Assembly (NCBI GenBank): GCA_914767715.1
Contig: OU612067.1
Span: 31,656,162 to 31,720,161, forward strand
Direction of reading: 5' to 3'
Origin: Membranipora membranacea
Taxonomy: Eukaryota > Bryozoa > Gymnolaemata > Cheilostomatida > Membraniporidae
DNA length: 64,000 nt
Shown: piece after piece, positions 3,731-64,000 of the stretch
Position numbering within the stretch: position 1 is the stretch's first letter
How the letters are laid out: the number at the start of each line of letters is the position of its first letter
Translations under genes and position numbers: made by a program
Notes under the pieces: generated by a model
The model's input: only the letters and a program-made list of their open reading frames with translations
The model's database searches: none
Told to the model about the DNA's origin: nothing

Positions 3731-4060
3731 TAGTAAGTAAGTAGAGTTGTACTAGTAAGTAAGTAAGTAGAGTTGTACTAGTAAGTAAGTGAGTAGAGTT
3801 GTACTAGTAAGTAAGTAAGTAGAGTTGTGCTAGTAAGTAAGTAAGTAGAGTTGTACTAGTAAGTAAGTAAGTAGAGTTGTACTAGTAAGTAAGTAGAGTT
3901 GTACTAGTAAGTAAGTAAGTAGAGTTGTACTAGTAAGTAAGTAAGTAGAGTTGTACTAGTAAGCATAGGACTGCCGCACCAAGCCCAAAATCAGGAACTG
4001 CGGCAGTCCTATGCTAGTAAGTAAGTAAGTAGAGTTGTACTACACTAGTAAGTAAGTAGA
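3731..4060. repeat. Tandem array, (AGTA)n + GAGTTGTACT units
   Basis: About a dozen units made of 2-4 AGTA tetramers followed by GAGTTGTACT, giving unit lengths of ~18-26 bp that differ by 4 bp steps. The array is interrupted at 3962-4015 by a separate hairpin insertion. Confidence 0.9.
3962..4015. mobile_element. 54-bp hairpin insertion inside tandem array
   Basis: Perfect 17-bp inverted repeats (AGCATAGGACTGCCGCA and its complement) flank a 20-bp loop. AGTA lies on both sides and could be a 4-bp target duplication, or simply the host array. Confidence 0.7.
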
Positions 4061-4511: not shown

Positions 4512-7500
4512 ATGCCACCCTCATTAGAGAGGGAGGACTCTCTTGCCAGAAAGCCAGTGATAAATCCCTTCAAATTTGAAGTCAAGCTGCCATGGTACAG
4601 AAAATTGCAGGTGAGTGAGTCTAGTGAGTGATGTGGTAGGAAACTGTCAAGCATTGATATATGATATCACATTATTGAGTCATGGACATCTGAGTCTTAC
4701 AGGTAGATGTTAAACTCATTAGGCCCACGGCCACTACTGAAATAATAAAATAAACCAGTGGAGTAGGTGCTCAGTCACTGAAAGTGAGTGAAAAGTACAA
4801 CTGACCTCGAATTTGACCTGGTACTACGCAGTTAACTCCCCAGATTCACATTTTGGCACAACAACAGGGAGTATCTCTATTGTTTTAGTTTAACAGCATT
4901 TAACTCTTTTTGGTAAGTTACATAACATAACATGAGTCCCAGGAAGAAATCATTTTTAAGCTGCATCTGCTCGTCTTACTCTTACCTATCGATTTGATAC
5001 GGCCTTCGCGCCATCATGTTACGATCATAATGATATGTGACTCCATCACCAAATGCCGCTGTTGATTATTGCTTTGGAAAATGATGTGATATGTCATTCA
5101 GGCTGATGCTGGGAGGCTAGGGGTCGTTCAACATAAAACTACCACTCAAAATCACCATCCGATCGCTCTTAGCTGAATGCTCGATTATAGGATACTTGTA
5201 TGCATGTTATACTTTCCTTTCAGATGGCGATTATGTCAGTTACCATTGCGCCTCTGAGACTAATACTAATGGTTTTATGTCTGTGTATTGCATGGATATT
5301 TGCCTCGATAGTCCTCGCCGGAATCAGCAAGGAAAAATTAGCAACAGTGCCGATCACAGGCTGGAGAAAGTAAGTAAAGGTCACAAAATCTTACATGATT
5401 GGGCTGGGGAAACAAAGAAAACAGGCTTTGCCTAACCATTATTATTCAAATTTGCACTTTTGGACAAAAGTAAGATGTAGTGCTACACTTACATGTACAG
5501 AACCTTCGGGGTATAAGCTCCGATTGAGGCATGGGCACCTAATTGTCCCTGTCTGAGCAAAGGGAAATCTGATTTGATTGAGGATAGATGTTTCACTTCG
5601 CTTTGTCCAAATTGAGCAAAATCAACACCGTCTCTTTTTACAGGAGACTGATGAGCGTCGTAACACTCTTCAGTCGTTGTGTGTTTTTCTTTGGTTCATT
5701 TGTCTGGATAAAGCGGGTGGGTGAGCCCGCCCCCGTCTCTGAGGCTCCTATCTGGATTATCGCTCCACATGTATCGTTCACTGATGTAGTCCTTTTGCCT
5801 ATGTACACCTACCCATCTATCATCTGTAAAGTGCAGCTCACGCAGCTCTTAATCTTCGGAAGTATGTCATAGCGCCATCCGCTGCTAATTCACTTTGCGT
5901 TCAAATTTCATAGCCGCCTGTTCACTTATCATTTACTGTTAGTTCACGATTTACCGCTGATGCATCCTGTCATTCTACACAAACTCTATATCATTTACTC
6001 ATCAGCTTTTGTATCTTACTCTTAAAATTAGTAGCCTGTGAAAGTGAGATTTATTTTCATCACAGCCTCGATCACTTCCCACAATACACAGATATTTGAA
6101 AAAGAAGGGGGTAGATTCAATAACCTTTGATCCTGTATCAAGTTCTCTGCTATTACATGTTTTGAGTAACTGCACCAAGCACCCATCTTGCTGAACCCCT
6201 ATGTAATTAAAATGAGCCCCAACACAAAAGTGGCAGAGTATTATATCATCCCTATAATTATTATTCTAAAACCATATTCACTTTGTTCTTAATTACAGAG
6301 TTTTTGTTCACTGATGTTCGGCTATTCAATTCACAGTTCGGTTCATATTGTTCATGTTAATTCTTTCAGAAATTTGCGACGGAAGTCACAGCTAATGTGC
6401 CAAGCAGCTTATTGGGTTTTCGGCTTCAGCTGGAAGATCATTGGTGAACAGGCTGACCAAACAGAAGCATCAGTGTTTATTTTTGCCCCCCACTCCACCC
6501 TGATCGACGCCGGGGCTATAATATTGCTCAACTGCGTTCCATATGCTGTTACTAGAGAAGAAAATAACAAAATACCGCTCATAGGAAGTATGTCTAACAT
6601 GAATTCTGTACGAGAGTACTAAGCTACCGAAATCCCCCCATTCAACAATTGCTTTAGATGCCCCCTCCCCCGCCCTCAGTATGAGTTTGAAACACACAAC
6701 TATGCTATCCTCATTTGCTAGTTAGGCCTGAACCTACTGCCCATATCAGCGCAGATGAATTTCACATATTGCTCATGTACTGAATCAGCATAACAAATTT
6801 TATTCTTTTTAAATATTTGAGCCCCACTATTTCAACTTCTGACATTCAATGGACTCTATTAATTGTTTCCCATATGTTTGACCATGTTTTCCCCTTTTTC
6901 TGCAGAGTTGATGAAACTTGCGCAGCCAGTGTATGTGTATAGAGAAGACAGGGACTCTCGACAAAAGACAATCGCTGAGTTAAAGAGACGAGCGCAGACC
7001 GGAGGACTGTGGCCTCAGTTCCTCATCTTTCCAGAAGGAACTACGACTAACAGAAAAGCTCTGATAACATTTAAGGCTGGAGCCTTCATACCAGGCATGC
7101 CTGTGCAGCCAGTTGTACTGAGATATCCGGATGAATGGGTCAGTTTAAACACTAAGCTTACTTCTCAGTCGCCATAATAGTATGTGACATCCTCATCAGG
7201 GTCCCCAGGCTGTACTTCTTCTTCTCTGTTTGTTAGTTTTGATTACAATATTTTCTATTTGTTTTACACCACACTGATATCTTGTTATGACTTGCAGTGA
7301 ACAAAAAATGTACTAGAAATCTTCTTAACTGGTTTGGAATATCTTTCCAGTGACCAAGAAGATGTAATAAGAAAGTTCTCCAAAAGGACCTCGAAATTGA
7401 CCCCCTTAAGTCATGATTCAGGATATCTTTTTTCCGAAAGGGTACATTGCTAAGTTTAATCTACTCATTCCATGGTTTGCATGATATGATGAGTGACTCC

Positions 7501-10500
7501 AACTTAACAGCCTCAGATATGTTTTACACTTTATCAGGGATGTGGTTTACCCAAAACTATCGCTATCTGCAAAGTGTGCATCCATTCTTTTATCCACCGA
7601 GATAATGTTTATTATATAAATACATGTGAATGTTGTGAACGACACCCATAGTGATTGTTGTGAGCACACTTAACGGACAATAGCCTGTACCTGGCTTACT
7701 TGCTTATCTCTGTATTGTTTGTTTTGTCTACCTGACAGGATTCAGTGACATGGACTTGGGAGGGACCAGGTGCTCCTTTACTACTATGGATGTGTTTGTG
7801 TAAACTATGGACTACATTAGAAGTAGAATTCCTCCCCGTTTATACACCAAATGAAGAAGAAAAGAAAGATCCGTATCTGTACGCTGAGAATGTTAGAAAT
7901 GTTATGGCTAGAGCCCTTGATGTGAGTACATTGTCATAGTTTTATTTAAAACAGAAGCACCGGTGTGGGTAATTTAAGGGACTCCTTTATAGGGAATGGA
8001 AAGGAATGGAACGATAGCACAGTGCAAGCTTGAATTGATTTTTATAGATTTATCAGCAATTTAGTCAAGTCACTTTCAAGTTTTAGCAGACAATTCAAGA
8101 TTTCGGTAAAAAAAGGGCTTACATTATAGGAGTTGGTCATTGCATAACACAGCATTTTACACAATTTACATGAATGTGTCTTATTCATTTAAATTTCTCA
8201 TCTTTAGCGAAAGGTTTTGAAGATATTGATGTATATTAGCAAACCACAGAAAGCCATAGATACTGCATGACTTTCATATCAAATTAGGAGTTGTCAGCTT
8301 AATGTCAAGGAAATAATAACTCCCAAATATTCATTGTGACAATCTAATCCTTTCCACTGCAGATTCCAACAACAGATCACACATTTGAGGACTGTAGATT
8401 GATGCTGTATGCAAAGAAAACAAACCTCAAGATGGGAGACGCCCTCATAGAGTTCAGGAAAATGCAACGGAGGCTCGGGTGAGAAAAGTTACGATTAATT
8501 GAGCATTTAGAGGCAGAGTTTGGTTCGATCTAAAGTCTCATGGTTACCATTTGGTAATTCAGTTAAGATTTTAGATTATGTAAGTTTATATTGTGGCATC
8601 TTCTTATGGGAACCATGACCGCTGTGAGAAATGGGTCGCATTTCTAGTTACGGAATATCTGACTTGTTGCATTTTGAGTAACCATCTTTATGTATGCAAT
8701 TGTAAATTATGATGATATAAACTGATTAATTAAAAAAAAAAGAAATTTTATATATAATGTTAGAAATGATCAAAATTCCCAATGGCTGAATGTTGCAGAA
8801 ATATTTTTTTTTGCCTTGTCAAAGTGTGATATCAAGGGATTAAGACAATTATATACCTCAAATATCATACATTTAGGTGTGATGCTAAAGAACCTGGCGG
8901 TCTATTGTATTGTAGCTTATTAACATTGGTCTATTTATGTATTTGCCAGGCTTGACTTTGACACCGTTCACAAGTTGTTAGATAGATTTAGTGCAATGTC
9001 AGAGCTGAATGACAACGGCGGACAGGTTGATATCGAGACTTTCGCCAAATATCTGAGACTGCCAATAACTGACACTCTTCAACAGTTGTTTAACATGTAT
9101 GATACGGTAAGTGAAAGTATTCTGTATGCAAAGGGAAACATAAAGGGTTGTTCTTCATTTCATGGCTCTGCAGCTGAAGTAACGAAACAACCCAACAGGT
9201 TAATTTGCTGGTTGAAACGACGGATTATTATCGTGCTTAAAAATCGTCTATTAAGCAGGTAGCAAACAACTCAAAAATTCATATGACATTAAGACAAACA
9301 GGGGCATAGAACAGCACTTTGGATTGACGTTAAAAGTCATTTATTAGGGTCTTGTCTTAGTGATTGTCAGCTAACATCAGTGATGATAACCAAACAAACA
9401 GAGATGTAACCACCGACCGACCGGTTCAATGTTTATATTTCAGGATGGCTCAGGGCACATAGACTTTAGAGAATATGTAATCGGTATGTCTATGATATCT
9501 GAGCCTGCTGGGAGCGACGAGACGGTCCAGCTCGCCTTTAAACTCTTTGATAAAGATAACAAGGTAGGAATGGTTTACTTTGGGTACAGGTTTGCTGAGG
9601 CTTCAGACTTTTTTTATTTGATTTGATATTTTGATGTGATTTTCTTATCATGATTTGTTTAAATTCATACGGACATCAAGAGGGATGATATTCCAATTAT
9701 TCGATGGTATAGCAGTATGAAATGAGAAAGAACTCTCTTTATAGATTTGATCATTGTTCATGAGAAGTTGTATTGAAAATATAAATCTAAGATCACAACA
9801 TAGATGATCTGACACGGAGACATCATTCATATCCCTGGTAAGATAATAGACGGTGTTTTTATACCTTTTCATCTGGATCCTAACTTCCCCTTGTGTTTTA
9901 ACAGGGTTATGTAACTAGAGAAGAATTCACTGAACTGCTCACTGATACTTTAGATGCTCAGGAAAGTGAAGCTAAATCACTCTTTGATAAAGTAGATTCT
10001 TCACAGTCAGGAAAACTTACTTTTGGTAAGAGATAGTTATGATTTTCCTATCAGTCTGCGATAACCCGGTACATGAATTAATAATATGGCGTGGATTTTA
10101 TATAAAAGTGACACTTTGACACTGGTACTGGTACTGGTACTGGTACTCTGTGATAGGCTAAAGGACAAGCCTAAATATTATATATACTGTGTTTGTCCAT
10201 AATCAAAAGCCCTTATAACCAGTAGACAACTCCCTAAATGTGACCAGCAGAATACTGACATGAAATAAAGCAATTAGGCGACAAGACATTGTTCATGGTA
10301 GTAGTAATGCGGAGTATGAAATAAAAAAAAGCAATTTTGTGATTTTTTCTTCAAGATGTCTGATGTAATAAATGTTTTTTACACTTTATAGCTGACTTTA
10401 AAAGCTATGCTGGTAAGATGCCAGAATACGCCTCTTTATTCACCACATATCACAAACTAAAGGAGTCAGGCAGCTCTGGAGGAGGTTTATTTACTGATCC

Positions 10501-10576
10501 TCTCGACGAGGAGTCTCCCTCTCCGAATAACGGTGATGATGTCACATCGGAATCTGAGGATAAGAAAACTAAATAG
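4512..10576 (+). CDS. Lysophosphatidylcholine acyltransferase, LPCAT2-like
   Basis: Reacylates lysophospholipids with acyl-CoA (Lands cycle) at the ER or on lipid droplets. Exons: 4512-4610, 5224-5369, one of 5644-5861 or 6370-6587, 6906-7138, 7739-7921, 8363-8478, 8950-9106, 9444-9563, 9905-10025, 10392-10576. All join in phase to 525 aa, the usual LPCAT1/2/4 length. A membrane segment lies at about residues 40-68 and acyltransferase motif I (HxxxxD) near 123-128. FPEGT is at 196-200, followed by the family block TFKAGAFIPGMPVQPVVLRY. Two canonical EF-hand loops follow (383-394 DTDGSGHIDFRE; 420-431 DKDNKGYVTREE), and a third is degenerate. The C-terminus KKTK fits a KKxx ER-retrieval signal. 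It resembles vertebrate LPCAT2 more than LPCAT1 (APHST, PLIG). Oddity: the motif I exon is duplicated. Function follows from the family; isoform use is inferred. Confidence 0.93.
5644..5861 (+). other. LPCAT alternative exon 3a (motif I variant APHVSFTD)
   Basis: 218 bp, acceptor ttttacag, donor GGAA|gtatgt. It enters needing one base of a codon and leaves after one base, exactly like exon 3b. It encodes 72 full codons with motif I as HVSFTD, keeping the catalytic His and Asp. Downstream it reads ICKVQLTQLLIFG, where 3b and known LPCAT2 proteins have a conserved Arg-Glu-Asn/PLIG block, so it is the diverged copy. It is fully open, which argues against an inert relic. Confidence 0.8.
6370..6587 (+). 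other. LPCAT alternative exon 3b (canonical motif I APHSTLID)
   Basis: 218 bp, acceptor ttctttcag, donor GGAA|gtatgt, the same length and phases as exon 3a located 508 bp upstream. It encodes HSTLID and then VPYAVTREENNKIPLIG, close to the LPCAT2 family pattern, so it is probably the constitutive or ancestral form. Including both exons would shift the frame (218 is not a multiple of 3). Confidence 0.85.
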
Positions 10577-12819: not shown

Positions 12820-15800
12820 TCAGTGTGTGGTTGGACCTGAACTTGGACGCTGCTGCATAGCCGTAAATGTGTGGGGAAAAGGAAATCTTGCAGTGTTGAT
12901 ATAATGATCATTATTATACTCATGAATATTACTGGTACTTATATTTCTACGAGGGCGTGGCCTTGGCCGATGGTTATCAGACAATGATAAGACAGCAAGA
13001 CTTAACCCACTATCTGTAGGTTCAGTCGTGTTAATCATCGTCCCAGCAGCAATTGCTGAATCTGGCTGGCCAGGAGTAAAAGTATCTTCATCAACAAAAC
13101 TTTGCGCTGTTTTGGTCGGAAATGAGTCGGCCGATGAATGTTGCAAAGGAATAACTGTAGTTCTTTCCACATTTTCAGATTGGTCTGTGTCACAACTCTG
13201 TAGCGAATTTGGCTCTGCGAATGAGTTTCCAAAAACAGAGGATAGAGAATAACCTGTAACAGAAACATAATATACTGTATAATGAATGCTTTAAATGTAG
13301 CTGATTGTAGTGAGTTTGAAGAGTATATTTACCTAAATTTTTAGTCATGTAGAACACTAGTTCGTTGTAAGCACTCTCATAGTCTCTATTAACTGTCCGA
13401 CTTTAAAAAAATAAATGTTTGATGGCTCCAACAGAAGGCCCTTAAGTCGGAGGTGATAGTTGGCGTGCAAATTTCCTACCCAAGGTATTATCAAGATTCC
13501 ATATATACACCCATTTCAGGCATTGATATGAATTCAGTGATTTATATGATTCAGTGATTGATATGATTCAGTGATGAATATATATCAGTGATTTCAGGTG
13601 TACCACAACACAAAGTCATATCTAAAGATAAGTCCTGATGTGAATGCATATAATTGGATTTAAATCATATTTTTTGTGAAGACAAAGAGAAATGTGGATC
13701 CCCATAATGGTCAATGGCCTCATGGTGTCAGGGGGGGGGGGAGGGGGGCATCTGACTTATATTACCTTTTTTGTTTCATGTAGATGCAGACTTCAATGTA
13801 TCCTATATTTGGTGTCTTCTGGGCTGGGATAACTTGATTGATGATGTGGTTTTGGGGCGAGTTAGAGATGTAGGGAAAGAAAAACATAATATCCCAAAAC
13901 AGCATTTACTTCAGCCTTAAATCTCCACTTACCACTTTCCAATCTGCTTGCCTCTACCTTAGCTGGTCCAATGAGTGAGAGTCCATCTTGTGACTGTGAT
14001 GCTATAACACAACAAACAATGGGTCAACATGTTGATATATATACTTTTATTGGCAGCCAAAGTCGTCTCATTCGAAATGTTTTGCACTCAGTGCCAGAAA
14101 TTTTTTTTTAAAACAAAAAAATGAGAAACAGAAAGGAAATAATATCATCAATGATGTTGGTCAAGTCGATAATATATGGTTGAATAGTAAAGTTTTGAAT
14201 GAACTGAACTTCTCTTTAGATCTCAAATGTAATGGTAAAGAATTGTATGTAGCAGAAACTTTGTATCTTAGATTGTCAGTATGATATAAAAGTAATAATT
14301 TTTCAGTATGATGAAAAATTTAGCGCTTCGCCATTGATAAACTGCAGGTTATCAAGAATCATGGATAATATACTTGCTATAGTTAAGACAGAGGATTACA
14401 ATCAGCCTCACCTCAGTTGTTAGAGGCTCATTATCACTAGTTTCATGATGTCCTTCAACTTCACATGCATCGTAAGGCAATCACTCAAGTAAGTTACCTA
14501 CCTGATGTTTTCATCGATTGGAAGATGTCAAGTTGTTTGCTCATGTCGCCCAGCTTTTTCTGAGTCTCAATATTATCTTGTCTCAACTTTTTTATCTCAC
14601 TTTCTTTACCTGCAAAGGTTAAAATACTAAATTTCGAGTTTCAAACTGATTAGACATGGGGCAAGCTTCCATGGATGGATGGATGGATTTATTACTATCA
14701 TAGACAAAAATTTGTCACGAAATACGTTGTTAATACTGACAAGAAAGAAAAACATGGAAAAATCAGATCTCTGTTGTATAAAAAGATTTTTAGAATAGTA
14801 TATTATTAAGTGTATGTATGAGATGTCTTAAAAAGCTGTCTCTACCCCATGTACCCCGATATTTAACGGTGCGGTAGCGACCTGAGGGGCATTTAGTTAG
14901 AAAGTCATTGATAAAGTGCTCTTCATCGTGTATGTATCGTAGTCCAAGTGTCTTGATCTGGTTGGCCACCAGAGCATCTATATCGGGGTGCTCAATCCCT
15001 AACTTGGCGGCATCTTTAAATATTTTGCGTAAGGACTTCTTGTCGCTTGCATGGATGCTTGTAAAAAAGTATGGGGAGACAGTAAGTGATGAGGGATACA
15101 ATAAAACTCTTGAATAACATATGAGAAAGGGGCTTTGAGCTATAGTATAAAAAATTTTTCACAATATACATGCGTTGAGATGCAGTAGTCACTATGGATT
15201 GCACATGATCATGATAGCGGAGTTTATCGTCAACAGTAACACCAAGGTATTTTACTTTGTCACAAAAATCAACTTCCGTGCCGTTAAGGATAAGAGTAGG
15301 GGTAATGGGCCTAACAAGCTGAGTAGAAAACATCATTTCTTGAGTCTTGGAGGCGTTTAACAATAGGCTTAAATCACAACATTGCTTTGAAATTCTACTA
15401 ATCTCATCAAGATAGGCACTAAGATCTGATTGATTTGATATGCATCCAATTATACAGGTGTCGGCTGCGTATTTAATGACAGTTATATTGCTCAAGTCTG
15501 AGGTAATCCTATTGGTATATATTAAAAACAAAAGTGGAGATAAACAGCATGTCAAACTTATTTTCAAAGGTTTATAAGTTGGGTGGTTTGAGTAAAAATA
15601 TTTTGGGACAATAAACTCGCTGAATTTCAATATTTTCCAGGACAATCTTACCCTACAGTATGAAGGTTGTCATTGGAATTTGGGTTCTGTTATTTTGCCG
15701 ATTAAAAATTCAGTTATCATTTGGTTTGGCTAATTTTTCTATGATACCTGCATAAAAATTGGATTCATCCTGTCTTGTAAACCTTTCTGACTACAGTTTT

Positions 15801-17809
15801 ACAAAATGTAATAAGAAATAACATATACCACCAAAGTATCATTACGTGATAATGTTGACTCAAATCTGTTTTGTAGTTTGCTCAATCTTTGTATAAACAT
15901 TTTCTCGGTCTCAGCCTGCTTCCTCTTCAGCTCTGCAACCTCATCATCCTTGTCTGAGGGAAGAATCACAAAAAAACCGTCTGTCATATGCTTTCCAATT
16001 ATAACATTGCATATCACAAAGCATGTACACACTATCAACAGTATAAGATCATTTCTCATAGTATCGCTAATCTGGATAAAGTCTGGCAGCCCGTGGCGGT
16101 TACCTTTGGTATGTTGAGTATGTGCAAGCAACTCCTCATTTGTATACTGTAGCTTTTGCATTGTCTTTTCCAATTTAGATTTCATCTGGGAAAGTTGAGT
16201 GTCCTTTTCTAAAATTAAATAATTTACTGATGTGCTGCACCAGAAATATGCACACAAATGTTACCAACAATGTCAATGGTTTCCGTTGCAAATTCGGCTG
16301 TAGAAGAAAATTATTATTTTTTGTAAAGGAAGAAAGTACTAGCTAGAGTATAGACTCTCTAGTTGCAGGGTGACCCAATATGAGCTGCTATCAATTATCG
16401 CTAGCTTTGGTGGGAATAACTGCATACAAATAATAGCGAGGTCAACTAAGTATTCTCATAGTTTTCCCTATATCAAGTTAATGTGTAGAGGCATACTTGT
16501 CCTCCTGCGACTGCTTCACTCAACTGGGCGACACACACTGTTAAAGAAACATTAAAAACAATATTGACTAGGAAACCCCATAGCTCTGGGAAATCCTCAT
16601 GATATAGTAGACATAAAGCAATGGCCGACATGCGCTGTGAAAGAAAATTGATTTATAGTATTCAATGGGAAAACCTATTGATCATGGTTATTCCTTAAAT
16701 TCCCTTTCTTTACCCATATTAACTATGGGATTGGGATTACATCATAGGAAAGTAAGATTTTATCATGTGATCAGTGTGAGCCAATGGATAACCAGTTGAT
16801 AATCTGTATTGGCCAATGAGATGGCAGTCCTTCAAGTGTTTTCCTGGTATTTCGGAAAACCAGGCAATCCGTAATAAGCGATACATTTTACTGCACTGAG
16901 CTGTGTATGGGATATAAAATTGGCAAAAGTCGACATGTGGAAGAAAATTGATTATAAAAAATGAAGTTAAAATTCCATAAATATTAGCTCTCAACGTTGA
17001 ATGCAATTTTGCACTGATTATTAACGATCAATTTTCATGTCACTGTCTAATTATTGATGTTTAGTAAGAAACAGAAGATTGGGCTGCCCTTAAAGAGGAA
17101 CAAAAGATCCCTATATCCTCGTACTGAGAATGTGATACATCCTAGAAAACTAGAATGCATCCTAGATGTCAGGCCATAAAACTGTGTGTGCAGCAAGCTG
17201 CCAAGACTGAAACTGGCACTAATTAGCCATGGCAATTACACTTTGATCGTAGGCCGAGAACTTTGTTAAGATTTGCAGATGGAGAGGACAACCAGAATGT
17301 CACGCAATTTTAAACCACCACAGAAATGACTAAATCTACTAACCTATATAAGCGATATTGAGTCGTTGTTGAAGTAGCGAAGATTCAGATGGAAATCCAT
17401 TTTTTGCTGCTAATGCTGCTGCTGTATACCCATTGCTATCAAAAGTCGACAGCAGCTGAACTTGTTGCCAGGCAGCTAGATGGCTAAGTAATTCATTGCA
17501 AGCCTCTATTTTCCCATAGAACGCTGCAGTATGTAAAGGAGTGTAATCCCAATTGGCTATCGCTTCAGAGCATTTATATTGAGGAAGTGATGCTAAGATT
17601 CTTTTGATGAGTTCTTCATGCCCAAGACGGGCCATCGTATGTAGTGCACTATCACCATTTTTCCCTTTAACTTTACTCAGCAACATGACAATATCCTCAG
17701 CCTTGACATTTCTCAGTAGGAAAGCTAGGTCATCTGTATCAACAACGCTTTGAAGCTCACATTCAGCGTAAACCCTCAATATCTTCTTTAGACGTTCTAT
17801 CGACGACAT
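12820..17809 (-). CDS. Ankyrin-repeat / coiled-coil protein
   Basis: Six minus-strand exons give 429 aa: 17809-17344 (ATG), 16208-16104, 15953-15846, 14609-14502, 14001-13933, 13253-12820 (TGA). Every intron is in phase 1 with good GT..AG sites, so exons 2-5 are symmetric. Residues ~51-72, 87-108 and 125-146 are ankyrin repeats (SALHTMARLGHEELIKRIL; TPLHTAAFYGKIEACNELL). Residues ~156-263 are charged heptad-like coiled coil (LSQMKSKLEKTMQKLQ; EVAELKRKQAETEKMF). The last exon is a disordered Ser/Thr-rich tail with an RPRPRPRRN basic patch. No membrane span is seen in the spliced product. I cannot assign an orthologue; a scaffold role is the most the domains allow. A possible 5' UTR exon may splice in just upstream (ttacag near 17830). 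Intron 3 holds a LINE remnant. Confidence 0.75.
14673..15600 (-). mobile_element. Degenerate non-LTR retrotransposon (LINE) 3' part
   Basis: The minus strand encodes reverse-transcriptase motifs (LSPLLFLIYTN; YAADTCIIG in place of YADD; VKYLGVTVDDKLRY). The conserved LINE tail (KKSLRKIFKDAAKLGI) follows in a different frame after a shift near 15100. The 3' end runs into a short (ATCC/ATGG)n repeat at 14673-14690, typical of LINE 3' tails. The YADD change and the frameshift mean it is dead. It lies wholly inside intron 3 of the ankyrin gene, in the same orientation. Confidence 0.85.
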
Positions 17810-19682
17810 GATTGATTGATTGTATTACTCCTGTAATATGGAAAGTGTGAGTTAATAATTAAGCTGGTCACAGTGCTCAGCAATCAAAAAGTTGTTGATA
17901 TCAGAACATTGTTTTGATGCCAAGAATGAAGGTCGTTGAAATTGATACATTTGGGTTCTGAGCGGTCTAATCACAGCAACACTGAGTATCACCACTCACC
18001 TATAACTTACAAGGATGTTGAGAAGGACTTAGGCTTATGTCATCAAACCTCATAGAGGGTTACCTTGACTTATGTGTTCAGGTCACCAGCAACAGCCCAT
18101 TACATTTAGGCTTTTACTTTCCTCTTGCAAAGTGCTCACAAACAACTGGAACTTTCAGTATAAACTCCTAGTTTCACTTTAATAACAAGGAAGTGGAGCA
18201 AGTCAGTTGAAACTATTTTATATCAATAGAATCCATTCATAATTGTTGTAGGACGGTGTCCAGCTCCCTCAAGCTATGAGCACCATACTTGCCAAGTCTC
18301 CCGATTTAGGCGTCACCCTCCAGATTTTTACACCCACCTCCCACTTTTTGTAAATCTCACTATTTCCTCCAGATTTTAGAGAAAACAGTCAAATCGCAAT
18401 TTTTTGATAGTTTTCCAAGCACATGTTGTTGTTGACTAGTTACAACAAAGGTCTTTGCACACAAAATTGAAAGCAATTATCAGATTTAACAATCCTAACA
18501 AATTTACCTGTTTTATTAAGATAACTCACAACACTGACAGTCATTGGTCACAATATAAAGTAGCTAGTCAAGTGCATAGCTTTAGTTTTCATTTCCTTTC
18601 AGATCACACATTTTTTAGTACTGTCTACTCAAGTTAAATTTAAGTGAAGGAAAATAGAAACCTAACAATTCCAAAGGTAGGTCCACTACAATTAAACAAA
18701 GCTCGGACCAAAGACTTTGAAACATATTTAATGTTAGTCAAACAAAAATATAGTACCTTATCTGGATTCTCACTGTCTGTGACTGAGCACATTTTCGGAT
18801 CTTGATGATGCATGATGGGCACTGCCACTTGTAGCCTGTCTTGACAGGCAAAGGCCCCTGGGACTTACATGCCTCTACTTTGCCAATGGGGTGTTTGATA
18901 CTGGACATTGACAATGTAAAGGTATGCATGTAAGAGTCCCAGGGGCCCATGGATTGATTGTAATTGTTTAAAGTGTATTTCACCTCAGTTTGATATTTTA
19001 GTACTAGTACAAACATGAAATTATATGGGGTCAAATATACCTTTTTAGCCCTTCCTAGTGGCTGGAAACGCTCTCAGAGCTTCTGCAGACGGGGCTCTGC
19101 CCCGTACCCCGTTAGGGGGCTCGCACCGCCCCCAAACCCCCAGGTGGGTGACTCGGGTGCTTCGCTCCCTCAAAGCACCATGTTGTGTTGCAGTATCGCC
19201 TTAAAATGGAATCTCTCTATTTTGTATTTAGATTACTTGGCAAGGATGATGAGCACATTCACAGTAGCTCTCAACTGTGTATGGAATACAAGTTTTTACA
19301 TTTTATTTTTACACGGCTACCTTTTTTTTTGTTGGGCATCAGGCCAAGAAATTGGAGTAACGCCAAACATTGTGCGACTCTATTTAGTATAATATTAGCA
19401 TGGAATAATATTATGTTTTGCACAATGAAAAAGTATATTACAACAACCAATAGCTTTCAAGCCTGTGCATAAAGGCAAACTTCAACTTCAACACATGCAA
19501 AGGTTGTGATTACAAAAATAGATTAAGAATAACTTTTTAGGGATTTGACAGAACAAGGCAGATCTAAAAACTGGTTTGATTAACCTTATTAATGAGCTTT
19601 TACTGGTATATACATTTCAGATGCAAAGTGGACTAGATTCAAAACAAAATGAAGACATATTTAGACGGTTCTTGAAGCTTCT
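17810..19682. other. Intergenic with a hairpin and a GC-rich block
   Basis: No confident gene. It holds the hairpin at 18853-18947 and an unusually GC-rich stretch at about 19080-19165. A possible minus-strand exon near 18840-18762 (acceptor aagacag, donor ATAAG|gtac) is open in more than one frame, so I do not call it. Confidence 0.4.
18853..18947. repeat. ~95-bp inverted-repeat hairpin
   Basis: GGCCCCTGGGACTTACATGC pairs with GCATGTAAGAGTCCCAGGGGCC across a ~50-bp loop. Probably a miniature inverted-repeat element. No coding capacity. Confidence 0.65.
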
Positions 19683-23530: not shown

Positions 23531-25511
23531 AGGCCAGAAGCAGCTATAGCATAAGTTGTTATGGCACGGACAATATTTGATGGCAGGATACTGATCACGT
23601 TTTATATTTCATTGATGTATGTTCTGTAAAATCCACCGGGTGTACCCAGTTGTAGTGGTCATTTATTTAGAAATTAAAAGGTGTTTTGTTTTGGCATTAT
23701 ATGTGTGGGGAAATAACTCCTATTCGGTGTAATCTAACTAATCTAATCATCAGGGAATTCCAGGTTGAAATTGCATTGTGAGATTTTGTTGACATGGCAA
23801 TGAATTCACCAAGTAAACTTGTAGAGAAGTCTGCTCGTATCAGACCAGCACAAATTGAAAAAATTCAATTGAATTATGTCAAACTTTTTGTGGGACTAGT
23901 ATGATATTGTATGGTCTTAAGACCACTGTCTTTGGGCAATTACAAACAACATTTTATGAGGTTTCAATTGCCTCTTATGTCATTTTTCAGCTGGATATCT
24001 TTTGCATAACACATGAGCAAAGAGTTCAATGAGTGCCTCACTTTTCAGAAAGAAACCCAACTGTCAGAGTCTGAAAAACTTAGATATGCCAGCTTCGCAT
24101 TCTTTCCTAACTTGCTAATGACATGATATGGGGATATGCGGTAGCGCTGTCTCTCACCAACCACCTCATGCAATGATAAAACATAGACAATGTAGAACCC
24201 AGGACTATAGTCTTGACTTGTGCCAACTGCATCAAACTCTTGACTTCCCACTAATAACATATCTATAGTGTGAATATTTGGGATATGCAGGAGTGCTGCG
24301 GCTGACCTCTTCAACTGGGTACACACTATTTTCCTACATCAAATTTGTCTCACGCTATCATGTTTTGAGCAGTTTTACGTCTAGGCTGCTTTTTGTCTTG
24401 TTCTCGTTGAGATGTAGTGCTGTCGATGGCCACCTTTTATAATGATGTGATAGAATATATTGTTAAAATCATACATATAGTCGTGTTTCCTGCTGACCAT
24501 ATTAATCACTTAACATTTCACTTACCTAACCGATTGTGAAGAAAATTGCAGGTATGCTGCCGCGCTGACACTGACATGATTGCTGCAACAGGATACACTC
24601 TCAATTTTTGATTCAGCACGTTGTTCTGCCCTAGATATACCCTTGTTTTAAACTCGTAACATTTCACTTCTTATTAGCGATTGTGAGAAAAATTGCGATA
24701 TGCTGCCGCGCTGCCGATCTTCCGCTGACATGATTGCTATGACTGGGTCCATTTGCCTGCATTCCGAGTGGCTCCCGATCCACTGGTCACGTCGCGGTGT
24801 GACCAGTGAATCGGGAGCAACAGGCATGCAGGTAATTGGATCAAACTTGTTCTAGGTTACACCCTTATTTCTTTATATTCAGCACATTGTTATACCCTTG
24901 AAACACCTTTTATTTAAACTCTTATTATTTCACTCATTAAAAGCAATTTTTAGAAGAAATGAGGATATGCTGCCGCGCTGCCGCTGACATGATTGCTACA
25001 ACTGGGTACACCCTTAATTTTGGATTCAGCACGTTGTTCCACCCAAGAAACACACTTTATTAAATTCTTAACATTTCACTTATTATATGCAGTTTTGAGA
25101 AATATTGCGGATATGCTGCCGCAAGACAGTATCATACTAACCTCATAAAGATCTGACATTATACTTATTGAAATTTTCAAATTTGTCCTGATCTAACACA
25201 AGCAGACTTCTGCAAGTTTACTTGGTAAATAAATTGGCAAGTCAACAAAATCCCCACAATGCAGTTTCAACCTGGAATGCCCTGAAGATTAGATTAGTAA
25301 GATTACACAGAATAGGAGTTATGTCCCCACACATATAATGCAAAAACAAAACACCTTTTAATTTCTAAATATGACCACTACAACTGGGAACACCCGGTGA
25401 ATTTTACAGAAGAAACATCAGTGAAGTATAATATGCGATCAGTTTCCTGCCATCAAAAATTGTCCGTGCCATTATTTGATAGAGCAGTTACAGCTAGGCT
25501 GCTTCTTGCCT
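23531..25511. mobile_element. 2-kb long-TIR element, family B copy 1
   Basis: The ends read AGGCCAGAAGCAGC and its near complement, with inverted arms about 400 bp long (shared CACCGGGTGTACCCAGTTGT and TTAAAAGGTGTTTTG). The core carries repeated CTGCCGCGCTGCCGCTGACATG blocks at irregular spacing, and a palindrome around 24768-24821. A minus-strand open frame at 24045-24326 (partly present in copy 2) has no recognisable function. No transposase seen. Other copies: 34766-36626 and, inverted, from 63102 past the window end. Confidence 0.85.
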
Positions 25512-27643
25512 ACCAGGTTTTGATCGGATTTTGAGTTTGAAAATTATTAAAGATTAAGCAGCTTGTCTTGAACAGTTTGATACTAATACTAATAAAAAAA
25601 AGAAGAAGAAATATCATCAAGTTAATAACAAGATGCTGCTGATTCTAAAGCAATTTTCAATTTCATAAATTCGACCATAATTGATCGAGTTTTGAACAGA
25701 GATGAACAAAAAACCTGGATTAAGTCTATGGGTCCAGCTTTGTGTCAGAAGAGGGTATCGGATGAATTTTCAAAAAGGGAAAATACCTCATAGCTGCTTA
25801 ACCCTGTTGCTGGTTGACTACATTCAAGCGTATTTAGGGTAGTTTAACTCTCTTACTTGATGAGTCCAAAGAGACTTGAGGTAAAGGTGGTGGAGGCCTC
25901 CTGGTTCCAGTCTGTTTTTTCGGTTGTTCGCATATAACCGAAATTGGGCGGACTGGGGTGGGCGGGGCGAGGTACTCCTGTGTAAAAAAAACAGAATTTT
26001 TCGATTATTCATGTGCTAATGGCGAAAGAAGATTTACAGTTGTATGACATTTTGAATACACACATCGCTTTGTGTTTTCAAAAATGCTTCACTCTTTCAT
26101 CCTGTGAAAGATGGTGATTCGTGATCAAATTTTAACAACTGTGTAGGTCAGAGATAATTGATTGTGACTTCAATTTCAGAATTGTCACATTATGGCCAAA
26201 ATAGTTGCAGAAAAAAGTTGGAAAAATCAAGAAGAGAAATCAACGAGATAAGTGTATAATCGTGACATCATGCTGTAAATCACAACATCTGATCACTTCA
26301 TTTGATACTACGCCCTGATTTTGTCAACCATCTTATTTTGCAAAAGATTTGCCTGTTGGGTGAGAAATCTGATTTGGCGTTCAATTTAGAATTAAATTAG
26401 TATTTAGAGCTACATAGATATCAGAGTGCACAAACTCCCAGACAGCAGTTCAAGCTTGAAACAGGACTGTTTACTGATCGACAATCAAAGGAAGTTTGGG
26501 ATCGCAATGTCAAGGAAAAAAGTATCGTCATTTGCCAATCAATCAAGTACAGCACCAGGGGGACTTCTCATGTCACAAAACCAGTATGTAAATAGTACAG
26601 TACAGTAGAGTCAGGTAGCTCTAATCAAGATGTATATAATGATGTTGACTACATTTTAATTAATTTGCTCTGAAGTGAACTGAAGTGAACTGAACTGGCG
26701 AACTTATCTTACTGTTTGAGTCAGAGGTGTCCGGAGGTAGTGCTGGGAGTGGCCTTGCTCGCTCTCCCTGGCCCTGCTATTCCTTCATCAGCATAGTTGT
26801 AACCATTGAGTATATCGATTGTTAAAGGAGCTGTTAAAGATCAAACCAATACAGATTGACATTAAATTCTTATTTCTTCAGGTTGAGAGCCCAGCATACT
26901 GTATACTAAACTGTACCGTACCATACCATACAAGGGCATGGTAATATTTTGCCAAATCAAAGTTCACATAATGTTGGGTCGGTTGAGAGCCCTAGGGGAA
27001 TTCTGAGAATCACATTAAGAACTAGAGAATGACTAAGAGTGACATAAAATAGCTCAAGATATGGTGAGGACAGACTGAGGAATATCATTATGTTCAGCAT
27101 TTGAATAATAATGCCGGATACTGTTTAACTGAGTTGGTCCTACCAGGAAAGAGTGAAATAGTGAACCAAGAAATTACCTTTCACATTAGGTATTGGAAGA
27201 GAGATGCCTTGATCACCAATGTTTCTAGAGGGAGCCTCCAAGTCTTGAAGAGGCTTTTCTTCCGTGATTTTGTTATGCTGATACCGAACTTCAATATGTC
27301 AAAAAGAATGCCAATTGTTATTGTTTTTTATATTATACAAGAAATGCTTGTGCTAAAGACATCTAAAAAATCAACTTTCCACACACCTACACACAAAATG
27401 CATCTTCCAATTTCATTTAAATCATGGTCGTAGTAAATATGATATGCTGCACTGAACCCTGTATTTGGAAAGTTACAATTAGCTTCCTTTTCACAATCTA
27501 AGAGCTCTTGCATAGATCATTGACACTGAAAGCTTAAGTTAGGTTGACTGTTGACTGAGCTAGCATATCACAAAGAAAAATAGATGATTTTTCTCTGTGA
27601 TATTTACAATGTTCAATACAAGTTCAGTTCAGTACGGGGGAAC
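25512..27643. other. Non-coding part of inverted-duplication arm
   Basis: No gene recognised. An open frame of ~110 codons at 27101-27433 also exists in the other arm (61491-61114), but the arms share near-identical DNA, so this alone is not evidence of coding. Confidence 0.4.
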
Positions 27644-27922
27644 TCAGAACTTCGACTGTCTGTATGTCATACATGTACACCAATATTGCCAATACTCACT
27701 TTTGTAACGCCTATACTTGTTCTTTTCTTGCCCTTTCATGATTACACAGGATGAGAACTTCTGATGAGAGCGTTTATACACTGAGTGTAAGATCAGTCCA
27801 CTAACTAATGCAACAAATACGGCAAGAAATGTAGCCAATGTTGTGTATTTCAGATTTTTCACATCATTGCTTGTGTCTGCCTCATCAGCAAGGGGGATTC
27901 TTTTGATAGGTTGTCCAGACGT
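27644..27922 (-). pseudogene. Duplicated terminal exon of class C receptor-like gene
   Basis: Encodes the same segment as 60701-60985: IKRIPLADEADTS, a membrane span (TTLATFLAVFVALVSGLIL) and a Lys/Arg-rich juxtamembrane tail, with the gtgagt donor kept. It lacks 6 bp (two residues, Ala-Ser) relative to the other copy. It begins exactly at the duplication breakpoint, so the ligand-binding exons are missing and this is a truncated copy. Confidence 0.8.
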
Positions 27923-29769: not shown

Positions 29770-30962
29770 TTTTTTTATTCTGTCTCTGCCGTTATGGTTA
29801 AGAAATATTGGTTTTGTAGAGCTAAAAAGTTACTAGTGATATAAGAGTCTGCACATTATAAAATATTATCTTTTGAAGAAAATGGAGTTTAAAAATTTCA
29901 CACATTGTGCTCTAAAGCATTGTCTCCGTAGCTCTATCCTACATTTGATATTACAGTAGCGCCCTGATGGAAGTGTAGCTAGGGCTTATATTGGCTCATT
30001 GTCTGTTGCATACATACGAAGACAACGGTTCTTAAAAACTCTGGTAAAAACCTCGCACAGAGATGGGATTTCACAGTCAGCTAAAAAGCTAGCGGTTGAT
30101 ATAACATCATTAATGTAGTTGCGACATGTTTTGGTTATATGGCCAAATAATGTACATAGATGATAAATAAAAACACATTCACTGAAAGTATACCGTAATC
30201 CCTCACCTATAAGTCACCGGACTTATAAGTGAATCACCCCCCTCAGAAAAAATAAAAATGCTCCAGCTATAAGACACCCCACAGCTATAAGACACCCCAC
30301 CGCTCTAAGACACTCACTACACTACACTCACTACAAATGAACTAAGTAGTTTTGGGAAAAAAGCTGCCCTCAGTGGGTTTCGAAATCACAACTCCATGTT
30401 TACAAGTCGAACGCTCTACCACTGAGCTATTTATCTTCGGTGATTGTAAGAGGTTTTGGTCCAAACTAAATATAATAATGCTTCAAATGATAGTCGCGTC
30501 TATATACTACTCTCTTAATAGCCGCCTTCACTTATACGTCGCGCGATCTATAGGTGAGGGATTACGGTAGTAACATCGCATTCTGATTGGTTTAGAAATA
30601 CCAAGAGAGGACAACTTCTTCATAATAAAAAGGCGCTTACTAGCTTTCTTGATTACTGCCTCAGAATGTGCCTTAAAGCTCAACTTGTGGTCAACAGTGG
30701 TACCTAAATATACAAATGACTCGACCTGCTCAACTACTGTGTCATTGATTACCAGGGGATCACATGCACGGTTGTCTCTCATGTTGGTAAATATGAGTTC
30801 CTTAGTCTTAGAGACATTGAGGAGCAGATCTTGCGAGCTGAACCAGCTGGTTAGACATTCTGCTGCAGCAGGTAATGTAGATGGTACATTAGGATAGCAT
30901 AGCTCTAGTAAGATTGTATCATCTGCATATTTGATAAGGTGATAGTTACCCATCGATGGCAC
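29770..30962 (-). mobile_element. 5'-truncated LINE inserted in the FYCO1 pseudogene
   Basis: Encodes reverse-transcriptase blocks YADDTILL, LLLNVSKTKELIF, VYLGTTVDHKLSF and KKASKRLFIMKKL, then the LINE C-terminus near 30180-29980 (CEIPSLCEVFTRVFKNRCLRMY). It splits the exon 20 copy between GGCACTGTGCCA (30962 side) and the continuation near 29760. It is itself cut by the TIR element at 30191-30569. It is a different subfamily from the LINE at 14.7 kb. Confidence 0.85.
30191..30569. mobile_element. TIR element carrying a tRNA-like insert
   Basis: The ends are TACCGTAATCCCTCACCTATA and its complement, ~379 bp apart, flanked by TA. The interior (about 30433-30367, minus strand) has a tRNA-like A box (TAGCTCAGTGGTAGAGC), a CTTGTAA anticodon-like loop resembling tRNA-Thr(TGT), and a degenerate B box. 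Direct imperfect repeats CAGCTATAAGACACCCCA lie near the left end. It sits inside the LINE. Confidence 0.8.
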
Positions 30963-32078
30963 AGTGCCAATAGAGGATTGTCTAAATAAGTAATCTGGGA
31001 AATGAGAGTCAAAAGTTAAATCCATCACAAGGTCTAGTTAAGCAAATAGATATTTCAAAAATTTCTACCAAAAGTTTTCTTTCAAAATCTTTAGCCTTCC
31101 TCGCTTATAATTTACAAATAACATCATTTACCAAATCTGTCTAACTTCCTGCTTGTATATGACTCAGTGAAGGGGGAAATTAATGTGTCTCGTTATTGAG
31201 CATAAAAAAAAATAGCATTTCTAAGAAACAAGATACAATCTGAAAAAAGCCCAAGATTTTCAATAGCACTAATGGCTCTGAATAGAAAAGTTGAGTAAAG
31301 GAAGTCTTAGTGCAAAATAAAGAATGTGAAAATATATAATGTTTCGCACTCAGCACTCATCACTCTCCTGTGATGTAACATCAGAAGTATTTATAGTGAA
31401 GCCCAGTTTCTACTGTTGATCTTGACGGGCAGTAAGACCGAGTCCGTATCATTATGACTAGTGATGCTAGAACTATTCACACTATCCTCCCTCCCGAAAA
31501 GTCTACAGTGGTGCTAAAATCCAAACAGCGATACAATGATTAAAGATAAGATAATAAAACTCATATGTAGAGCAGTTTTTCTCCAGATTGATATTGACAA
31601 GTAATACAGTCGAGGAAAATTCACAGATCAAAATTCCCAATTCAGATTTTCAATAGGACTGATGGCTCTAAATAGAAAAGTTGAGTAAAGGAAGTCTAGG
31701 AAAATTTACAGATCAAAATTCCCATTTCAGATTTTCAATAGGACTGATGGCTCTGGATAGAAAAGTTGAGTAAAGGAAGTCTTAGTGCAAAAAAAAGAAT
31801 GTGAAAATATATAATGTTCAGCACTCAGCACTCATCACTCTCCTGTGATGTAACATCAGAAGTATTTGTAGTGAAGCCCAGTTTCTACTGTTGATCTTGA
31901 CGGGCAGTAAGACCGAGTCCGTATCATCATGACAAGTGATGCTAGAACTATCCACACTATCCCCCCTCCCGAAAAATCTACAGTGGTGCTAAAACCCAAA
32001 CAGCAATACAATGATTAAAGATAAGATAATAAAACTCATATGCAGAGCAGTTTTTCTCCAGATTTATATTGACAAGTA

Positions 32079-36829: not shown

Positions 36830-39800
36830 TTGATGATGTAAAAGGTAAAGTTCACACTGCTCTACACAATAATTTCTCTTTTAAAAGTGTCAGCTCTTGA
36901 TATCTTAATGCCCAATTTATCGGGCCAGTATAGCTTTCGCTTCAAATTTGGATCAGGCTCTATCTCGCATTAAAAAGTTAGTTGAATTTACAAAGGCTGT
37001 TTTATTTAATAATCTGTGATTGTGGGCCATGCAAAATGGATATATCTTGATACTAAGGGGATAACCAAACACCGGTGTCTTAGAACACATACCATTCTCT
37101 TACTGTGACAGATATGCTGAAATAGGCCTGAAATCTGCTTATGAAGTGATACTGACTGTGATGTTTCAAGAATATTCATCAATCTGCAGGCCCTACCTAT
37201 AATTTTGCACAGGACTTATAGAAATTGTTTGAGATATACTGTTTGCAGCAAGTGACTTGACATTATAGATGTTTCAGTTGTTACACAGCAACACAAATTA
37301 AGTAAAATAACTTCTTTGTTTATAGTCAGCGTTGTGTATATGATCGTTTTCAGATTGTGTAGAGAAGTTGAAAGGTGAATTTAATGACTTCGGTAAGCCA
37401 GTTAATGACGACGATAAAACCTTACAGAGGTTCTGTGTGAAGCTGGAATTTCTTCTTCGTCATGAGCAGATTGGTGAGTTGATGTGAAAATGTAACCCAT
37501 GACTTACTTGACTTATGTTGCAGAACTCCTAGTGGGATATTGTGCCAGAATTGCCTTCTCCTTCCATCAATCCCGATCTCTCGCCAGCCTCCGCCTATGA
37601 CTTGAACTTGACTTGTAACCCATAATGGATCTTTATCGCACTCTCAGGTTCATGAGGTAAATTAAAACTGAGCTACATAGATAGGTCATATCATTTGATC
37701 TCTTAGAATTATTAACATGAATCAATGTCTCAGTGTATTTACTAATTCATATATGACACAACGAAAAATATGTTCTTAAAACTCATCTAGATCATACTTT
37801 GATTAATCTACAAAACCTCTAGGAATGTGAAGAGTCGAACATCAGCTCGTTTTAGACGGGGATGACAAGTCGGCTTTGTATTTAGCTAAGCTGCCTGCCC
37901 GCTGCTATCAACCTACATAGAATCACCAGCACCCTTAGACCAAACACAAAAAGCTTGTGATTAAATAAATAAAATGTATTGATCAATGTAGGTAGTCCTA
38001 TACACCTGTTAAAGGAGTCAGTTGCAATTGTCATCAAAGTTTTCCGATTTACCCCAGAGAGATATATTTATGGGCATTCCCAATAATCTGTTTGTTGCGT
38101 GTAGGATTTAAGTATAAACTTGATGCTGGAAATCTGAATAGGCCTGCCACAGTGCATATTGGATGTTCAGGTCCTTGCCTGCCTTTAAACTGCATGACAT
38201 GAGGCTGAGTCATATTTCTATATACCAGTAGCTTTTCAAATTTTTATGGAAATTGATGATCATAATGAGACTCTTGGCACAAAACAATTTACATAATGTT
38301 GTTCCAGTGATTGGTTTGGCTGCTGACCAATACGAGGTACCATTGCACTCAGCATGGATCATTCCTACAAGCACATACTGAAGTAATGGCCATCATACTA
38401 ACTCACTGCAACTGTAAATAATGGCTTGATCCTTACAGAGGCTGATGATCAGATATATTTCAACCACCAATGGGACCAACCAAACTTTGCCAACCTATTA
38501 TGGCAACGCGGTTGTAATATTCTAAAACAATGTATTTCATATGTCAGTCAAAATTGAATATTTATCTACTTATAGAAAAGAGCAGCTTTCTCGGTGGTAG
38601 GAAAGATTACTGGAACTATTTCATAGAAGGTTTGAATTCAGTGAAGGGAGTAACAGATGGATTGAAGTTTGTGAAAGCTCACAGTGAGGTATGCAACATG
38701 TTTGATAGCCCTAGTGGCCTCTGTTAATTATTTATTAAACTTTGTGAGGTTTATGCAATACCATGCTAGCTTTAGGAACTCAGGCTAGCTAGAGGACATT
38801 GTTATCACTTTGTATTATCTTCTTGTTTTATCTCTAAAGTAGTAGGTATAGATAGTGGAAAGTTAGCCGGTATATTGTATCAGTAAAGATAGCCGGCTTG
38901 TATCTTGTATTTTCTGTGATATCGAGTAGGTGTTGACCTGAGCATTCCTTGTTGAGTTTGATAGTGATGGCCATAAGTACATTGTCAATGTTTTGATATC
39001 AGTGACTTTCCAACCTTTAGGGCAGCACTTGTTCACACTTTTTCATTATATTGGTGAAAACTTGTGGAAAGCTTTTCTTGTCAAATGAGTGCACATACAG
39101 CTTATTGATTTGAGCCAATACTGGCATTGCTTTCCATATGCAGCTGCTATAATTCAAAGGTTCTGTCACACTATTTTGATAAAAGGTCAAAAATATGATC
39201 TACTGACCAGCGTCCAAAAGCCTAAATATTGGTCTCAGGATCTGTTGTGACCAGTGTTAGTGATTGTTGTGATGTATACACCATCAGCCGCTTCACCCAT
39301 AGTCTAGGACTATAATGCGAATTCTACTTCATCGATAGTTGTCACTCCTTGAAATGGGTTCTCGGGCAGTTCCTCCTGCAAAATTATATTTTTCAATTAC
39401 AAACATTTTGAGTCACCATCACTTTCCTTTCCACACAAGCAAATGATGTCGACTTGTGATAAGATCTTTCCCACATATTTTTTTATCAGTTGGCCTTAAA
39501 GGGATAATACACTTCTGATCTCTGTTTGGCAGCCAATGGAGCACAGAAAAATGTAAGTACATACATAAACTCCTTACTTGTAATTCAAAACCCCTTGTTC
39601 TGCTCAAAAGTGCATTCTAAATTGTAGTTGTGCATCTCCAACAAGAAATAAGACAACTAACAGAATTGCTTGTGAACTGAAAAAAGCTGATTTTGTGAGC
39701 AGTTGTGTGCTCCTACCTCTTGGTTAGTGTCTCAATTATACAGATACTCATGAGTACGCATGTGCAATAATGATGACCTTTGGACTTTAGCTTGTTTTTT

Positions 39801-63900: not shown

Positions 63901-64000
63901 AATTTTTCTCACAATCGCTAATAATAAGTGAAATTTTACGAGTGTAAAACAAGGGTATATCTAGGGTAGAAGAACGTGCTGAATCCAAAATTGGGAGTGT
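60701..64000. repeat. Right arm of large inverted duplication
   Basis: Reverse complement of 24595-27922, still homologous at the window edge. It begins inside the receptor's last visible exon. It differs from the left arm by small indels, for example a ~38-bp gap near 61175 and 6 bp in the receptor exon. It contains family B TIR element copy 3 from 63102. Confidence 0.9.
63102..64000. mobile_element. 2-kb long-TIR element, family B copy 3 (partial, inverted)
   Basis: Starts AGGCCAGAAGCAGC and runs off the window. It holds the GATCCACTGGTCACG-type palindrome around 63780-63830. The flank AAAACCTGGT is shared with copy 1, so it was duplicated with the arm rather than inserted separately. Confidence 0.85.

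Follow-up and report, generated by a model that had tools for sequence, protein, structure and literature searches.

A candidate pair of mutually exclusive exons carrying catalytic motif 1 in an LPCAT-like acyltransferase gene of Membranipora membranacea

The window, by which we mean the whole stretch of DNA that was analysed, covers 64,000 nucleotides of the genome of the bryozoan Membranipora membranacea (contig OU612067.1), and its G+C content is 36–40% in 4-kb steps. It contains an LPCAT-like acyltransferase gene, modelled from the sequence, with GT-AG at every intron. The parts of this gene are as follows:

4512-10576, plus strand: LPCAT-like acyltransferase gene of 11 exons, from the ATG at 4512 to a stop codon ending at 10576
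4512..4610, plus strand: coding exon 1, 99 nt, beginning with ATG and ending at a CAG/gtgagt donor; the true transcript start may lie further 5′
5224..5369, plus strand: coding exon 2, 146 nt, phase 2 exit
5644..5861, plus strand: exon 3a, 218 nt, with a predicted membrane-facing segment, HVSFTD (motif 1) and a basic residue at the position of PlsC K105
5862..6369, plus strand: intron between 3a and 3b, 508 nt, U2-type GT-AG at both ends
6370..6587, plus strand: exon 3b, 218 nt, the presumed alternative of 3a, with HSTLID (motif 1) and R at the position of PlsC K105
6906..7138, plus strand: exon 4, the downstream partner common to 3a and 3b, with FPEGTTTNR (motif 3)
7739..7921, plus strand: exon 5
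8363..8478, plus strand: exon 6
8950..9106, plus strand: exon 7, start of the EF-hand region
9444..9563, plus strand: exon 8, EF hands
9905..10025, plus strand: exon 9, EF hands
10392..10576, plus strand: exon 10, ending with the stop codon (protein C-terminus ...EDKKTK)

Two proteins can be read from this model, isoform A with exon 3a and isoform B with exon 3b. In a Pfam search, each contains the acyltransferase domain PF01553 above its cut-off as well as C-terminal EF hands, the latter matched by PF00036 in three stretches and by PF13499 in two. Motif 1 is HVSFTD in isoform A and HSTLID in isoform B, both of the form HxxxxD; motif 3 is FPEGTTT and motif 4 PGMPVQP, with the spacing of the family. 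The order of PF01553 and C-terminal EF hands is what we take to be the LPCAT1/2 arrangement, and the ...EDKKTK terminus fits the KKxx pattern of an ER-retrieval signal. EF hands are also carried by the human LPCAT1, LPCAT2, and LPCAT4 proteins. The vertebrate enzymes LPCAT1, LPCAT2, and LPCAT4 (LPLAT8, 9, and 10) share with the predicted protein a PlsC-type domain in which motifs 1–4 have the same order and close spacing, as well as an N-terminal hydrophobic helix. Judging from its domain order, from general features of the family and from a review (PMC8753187), the predicted gene is taken to be an LPCAT1/2-type (AGPAT-family) EF-hand acyltransferase. A pattern search gave 1 match in viral contigs and 24 in the genomes of bacteria and archaea, and tblastn confirmed none of them as a relative.

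The remainder of the window is varied. An array of 26-bp tandem repeats (AGTAAGTAAGTAGAGTTGTACTAGTA; 3732-4057) ends roughly 0.5 kb before the LPCAT start codon. A 54-bp insert breaks this array, and its two 17-bp ends (3962-3978 and 3999-4015) form an exact inverted repeat of which each arm is found once in the window. Two inverted copies of a segment of more than 3 kb (24595-27922 and 60701-64000) are about 95–98% identical, and ORFs within the two copies (27068-27430 on the plus strand, 61117-61524 on the minus strand) encode nearly the same peptide, with no Pfam match. The 684 bp at 39496-40179 match their own reverse complement at 97.7% and thus form a near-perfect palindrome, while positions 1-585 do so at 73%. 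Because the window holds several long and near-identical inverted duplications, the genome would seem to be repeat-rich; none of the interspersed repeats found inside the window at E≤1e-10 touches the LPCAT-like gene, and Rfam yields nothing at gathering score over the whole window. Reverse-transcriptase-like ORF fragments lie on the minus strand at 15019-15669 (RVT_1, 37.5 bits) and at 30531-31037 (RVT_1, 16.5 bits, below the cut-off), and ankyrin repeats on the same strand at 17342-17824 (Ank_2, 55 bits). On the plus strand, an ANF_receptor ligand-binding domain (59306-59896, 48.6 bits), likely part of a receptor gene, is followed by a long ORF without Pfam match (59900-60982), and a coiled-coil-like stretch of 427 residues free of stops (44922-46202) has sub-threshold Pfam matches only. 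Introns and the presence of EF-hand LPCAT, ANF-receptor and ankyrin genes give the window the look of animal DNA.

Exons 3a and 3b are both 218 bp in length, are entered after the second codon base and have identical phases. They also have in common the 11-nt donor string GGAA/gtatgtc, and among the ten donors of the gene these two alone read gtatgt; each scores 5.3 with a donor matrix, which is lower than seven of the other eight. Recomputation gave the same exon coordinates, lengths, AG/GT sites, phases, and shared donor as the original prediction, and placed the neighbouring boundaries where it had put them, with exon 2 ending at 5369 and exon 4 starting at 6906. In the gene model the pair is flanked by exons 1-2 upstream and exons 4-10 downstream, so that 3a and 3b are neighbouring internal exons. 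Either one alone leaves an open frame of 525 amino acids. When the two are joined, a stop appears 8 codons past the 3a-3b junction codon, and when both are skipped, within 13 codons of exon 2; the frame break foreseen for both cases is therefore real and leads to an early stop each time. The stops in the three frames number 4/0/6 in 3a and 4/0/4 in 3b, the sole open frame being the one used. Frame arithmetic had also been taken to mean that only one of the exons can enter any mRNA, but what it bars is a full-length protein with both or neither, not the splicing itself. Given that reads joining both exons have been reported in 18 human clusters with incompatible frames (PMC5740500), “one per mRNA” must therefore be reworded as “one per protein.”

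Both exons do encode HxxxxD, as had been claimed, although not in exactly matching context: the motif is shifted by one residue, its histidine falling at position 124 of isoform A but at 123 of isoform B. The best alignment of the two peptides has one gap on each side, so their equal length of 218 nt goes with one-residue indels that offset each other. Without gaps, identity amounts to just 73 of 218 nucleotides and 8 of 74 residues, and is so low that a tandem duplication, if that is the origin, must be old. With gaps, 73 columns hold 17 identities and 34 positive pairs (about 23% identity), a score reached by none of 5000 residue shuffles of 3a (z about 9). Within the window, tblastn with low-complexity and composition corrections off finds 3b with 3a as query at E=2.2e-4 (next best 0.6) and 3a with 3b at E=2.2e-4 (next best 2.9).

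The pair was also placed among all comparable segments by a WebScipio-like scan, which looks for similar length, compatible splice sites and frame, and an alignment score of at least 15% of the self score, the default given in PMC3228551. On both strands of the 64 kb there are 517 candidates, that is, stop-free AG...GT segments within 20 amino acids of the exon length, 3a, 3b and their overlaps included. The 3a/3b pair scores 16.4% with gap penalties of -11/-1 and 17.0% with the published -10/-2, just above the threshold of 15%, while the best unrelated candidate reaches -2.1% against 3b and -1.1% against 3a. Apart from overlaps of 3b itself, no candidate scores above 0 against 3b except 3a and variants that overlap 3a. 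When each of the remaining seven internal exons was used as query, no candidate in the gene scored higher than 1.5%. According to the same source, 90 of 16,180 non-exclusive exons of the fly X chromosome have these features (PMC3228551). On these alignments, 3a and 3b are judged to be homologous. Exon 3 has no further copy: within 4611-7138, HxxxxD stands in a sensible context in 3a and 3b only, and tblastn finds no further copies of LPCAT exons in the 64-kb window.

Do both exons behave as coding sequence? A codon table derived from the remaining exons of the gene gives the frame used +0.04 (3a) and +0.08 (3b) per codon; the frames not used fall between -0.29 and -0.58, and the mean for intron segments is -0.48 (SD 0.15). 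Of 20,000 random 216-nt segments drawn from the joined introns, 95 are stop-free in the frame read. The acyltransferase profile responds to both: together with the rest of the domain, PF01553 rises to 57.6 bits when 3a is added and to 52.5 when 3b is added, and all eight control peptides put in the place of exon 3 (two reversed, six shuffled) stay below these values, at 36.8–42.3 bits. The full isoforms score 56.0 (A) and 49.4 (B), and the fragment lacking exon 3 scores 35.9. Taken alone, neither the 3a nor the 3b peptide matches Pfam at E≤0.1. Three NCBIfam profiles, all below cut-off, divide the isoforms differently, TIGR00530 (49.6 vs. 42.1) and NF052553 (49.7 vs. 37.9) scoring higher with A, and NF052552 (50.3 vs. 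31.4) with B.

The single solved relative of the acyltransferase core at E≤1 is Thermotoga maritima PlsC (5KYM), a bacterial LPA acyltransferase without EF hands, in which the arginine of EGTR corresponds to T in the LPCAT-like gene. The core matches it at E 0.00012 with 3b and at 0.067 with 3a. PlsC residues H84, D89, and K105, the last of which is a residue of importance, align to H, D, and K in 3a and to H, D, and R in 3b. From the histidine of motif 1 to the glutamate of motif 3 there are 74 residues in isoform A and 75 in isoform B; the corresponding spacings in human LPCAT1, 2, and 4, derived from a table in the family review, are 73, 74, and 74 (PMC8753187). The two exons differ in character, mean hydrophobicity being 0.96 in 3a and 0.20 in 3b, and the hydrophobic stretch that precedes motif 1 is the stronger one in 3a. 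A REEN..IPLIG stretch is present in 3b and absent from 3a, and around motif 1 it is 3b that resembles LPCAT more. By these predictions, both 3a and 3b look functional.

How could a cell be kept from using both? Splice-site incompatibility, branch-point proximity, and a frame shift leading to decay are named as routes to exclusion in PMC5740500. U12-type sites were considered and rejected as the cause here, as 3a, 3b, and the neighbouring exons are all of the U2-type GT-AG class. Too short an intron between the exons was also rejected, since it is 508 nt long and the limit is a few tens of nucleotides. Because both of these explanations fail, exclusion, if it occurs, must come from regulated donor choice together with the removal of out-of-frame mRNAs. 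No docking/selector pairing was conspicuous, the duplex energies of three intron pairs lying within 1.5 SD of 30 shuffles each, and counts of splicing-factor motifs in the introns around 3a and 3b show nothing distinctive. A possible stem of 9 bp would place 3b in a loop, with the likely branch point of this exon covered:

6351..6359, plus strand: left arm of the stem, TTCATGTTA, overlapping the likely branch-point sequence of 3b
6595..6603, plus strand: right arm of the stem, TAACATGAA, 7 nt past the 3b donor junction

It is the longest such stem among nine exons tested, and stems of 9 Watson-Crick pairs arise in 33 of 2000 dinucleotide shuffles. When G-U pairs are allowed it becomes unremarkable, as a 10-bp stem then appears in 162 of 2000 shuffles, around exon 2 as well and in 11 of 72 cross pairs. 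Over 5200-7138 the number of helices of at least 10 bp is mildly raised, at 6 against 2.4 expected, with 4 of 200 shuffles having as many. As a control of exon choice, the 9-bp stem may be considered a weak lead.

The layout of mutually exclusive exons, with a swap of the active-site motif, thus draws support from the structure of the gene, the homology of the two exons, their coding signal, and the way both fit the acyltransferase profile. Could the same pair have arisen or be used otherwise? It is quite unlikely that 3a is a relic, used in the past but by now silent or almost silent, which would leave 3b as the sole working exon. The greater likeness of 3b to LPCAT around motif 1 and its better match to PlsC agree with such a history, but the duplication is old at about 23% identity and a relic of such age should have decayed, whereas 3a keeps its open frame, intact splice sites, coding-like codons, and an intact HxxxxD, and scores above 3b with both Pfam and TIGR00530. 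That 3a belongs instead to an alternative terminal exon, either a first one with its own promoter or a last one with premature polyadenylation, seems very unlikely. There is an in-frame ATG at 5588 that is open into 3a, an ATTAAA lies at 6206 in the 3a-3b intron, and the exon-pair method is misled most often by terminal exons (PMC3228551); yet 3a combines a good acceptor (ctctttttacag) with an in-phase donor identical to that of 3b, a combination that neither kind of terminal use would need, and termination after 3a would cost the protein motif 3.

The immediate stops obtained with both exons and with neither could also make the pair mainly a switch of productivity, in which inclusion of both or neither yields mRNA targeted for decay and lowers the level of enzymes that themselves differ little. 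The 508-nt intron would permit 3a to be joined to 3b, and reads joining both exons occur commonly where the frames of a cluster are incompatible (PMC5740500), but a poison exon requires neither an intact active site nor homology, and both 3a and 3b keep the signature of the fold; we hold this reading to be highly improbable. That the assembly is in error here, or that a second LPCAT copy was collapsed into this gene and gave it a foreign exon, is the least credible of all: although several long near-identical inverted duplications are present in the window, they leave the LPCAT-like gene untouched, no second gene surrounds 3a, and no other copy of an LPCAT exon occurs within the 64 kb. We therefore favour, with good confidence, an old tandem exon duplication whose copies are predicted to be used as mutually exclusive exons, which would swap motif 1 along with the membrane-facing segment that precedes it and a portion of the presumed acyl tunnel. 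What speaks most against this reading is a pair score barely over the published threshold and the poorer PlsC match of isoform A; the failure of either exon peptide by itself to match Pfam, the REEN..IPLIG stretch missing from 3a, and the lack of a conspicuous docking/selector pairing also count against it.

Such an arrangement has well-known counterparts. In Dscam, in muscle myosin heavy chain and in the human set of PMC5740500, neighbouring homologous internal exons are likewise equal in length, phase, and splice-site type, and in tandem-duplicated mutually exclusive exons generally one is likewise needed per product and the frame breaks when both are joined. The 3a/3b pair, predicted from genomic sequence, is more diverged than most pairs found by the threshold method. 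A further parallel is ketohexokinase (KHK), in which the swapped exon of an enzyme carries a catalytic residue conserved in both forms (PMC9741552); KHK is however an unrelated enzyme, and the 3a/3b swap covers the catalytic His-Asp motif together with its membrane-facing flank. Swaps that include catalytic residues are an instructive kind of exon pair, even if the idea is not new given KHK.

Within the family itself, no mutually exclusive or alternative motif-1 exons of LPCAT1, LPCAT2 or LPCAT4 were found in open-access papers, among the matches listed. Alternative splicing is mentioned in one paper for Lpcat3, an MBOAT enzyme. The Drosophila LPCAT CG32699 is a single invertebrate LPCAT1/2 orthologue with LPCAT activity, and the main text of the paper describing it makes no mention of splice isoforms (PMC4293825). 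With the KHK precedent (PMC9741552) and no LPCAT1/2 case among the open papers listed, the kind is known and the member apparently new; an LPCAT gene with swappable motif-1 exons appears, provisionally, to be a novelty. Vertebrate LPCAT diversity, by contrast, comes from separate genes, whereas here two versions of the motif-1 exon lie inside one gene.

The proposed mechanism is as follows. The cell would choose 3a or 3b and thereby make isoform A or B, the choice probably being made by splicing factors acting on two equally weak donors, and mRNAs with both exons or neither would be removed by nonsense-mediated decay. The swap would alter the segment that faces the membrane as well as some of the acyl tunnel, and two lysophospholipid acyltransferases differing in acyl-CoA or lysolipid preference could arise from one gene. 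Exon 3 covers motif 1 with the sequence on either side of it and includes the position of PlsC K105. PlsC itself measures acyl-chain length with hydrophobic “ruler” tunnels and is anchored through a two-helix motif at its N-terminus (PMC8753187). Because exon 3 contains the motif 1 region, and given these parallels with PlsC, an effect on acyl-CoA or lysolipid preference or on seating in the membrane is likely.

The further proposal, that the gene yields two functionally distinct enzymes and that the acyl-chain or lysolipid preference in membrane remodelling is governed by splicing according to tissue or stage, is a tentative one that we regard as possible rather than probable. As of a 2021 review, no structure had been solved for the mammalian members of this enzyme family (PMC8753187). 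If the reading of the pair is true, 3a and 3b would isolate the contribution of the motif-1 segment and the acyl tunnel while the rest of the protein stays constant, and would provide a natural pair of isoforms for mapping how the context of motif 1 affects substrate choice. If transcripts confirm it, splicing within one gene can set substrate choice in phospholipid remodelling and, on the two-enzyme reading, would fill in this animal the role that is taken by separate LPCAT genes in vertebrates.
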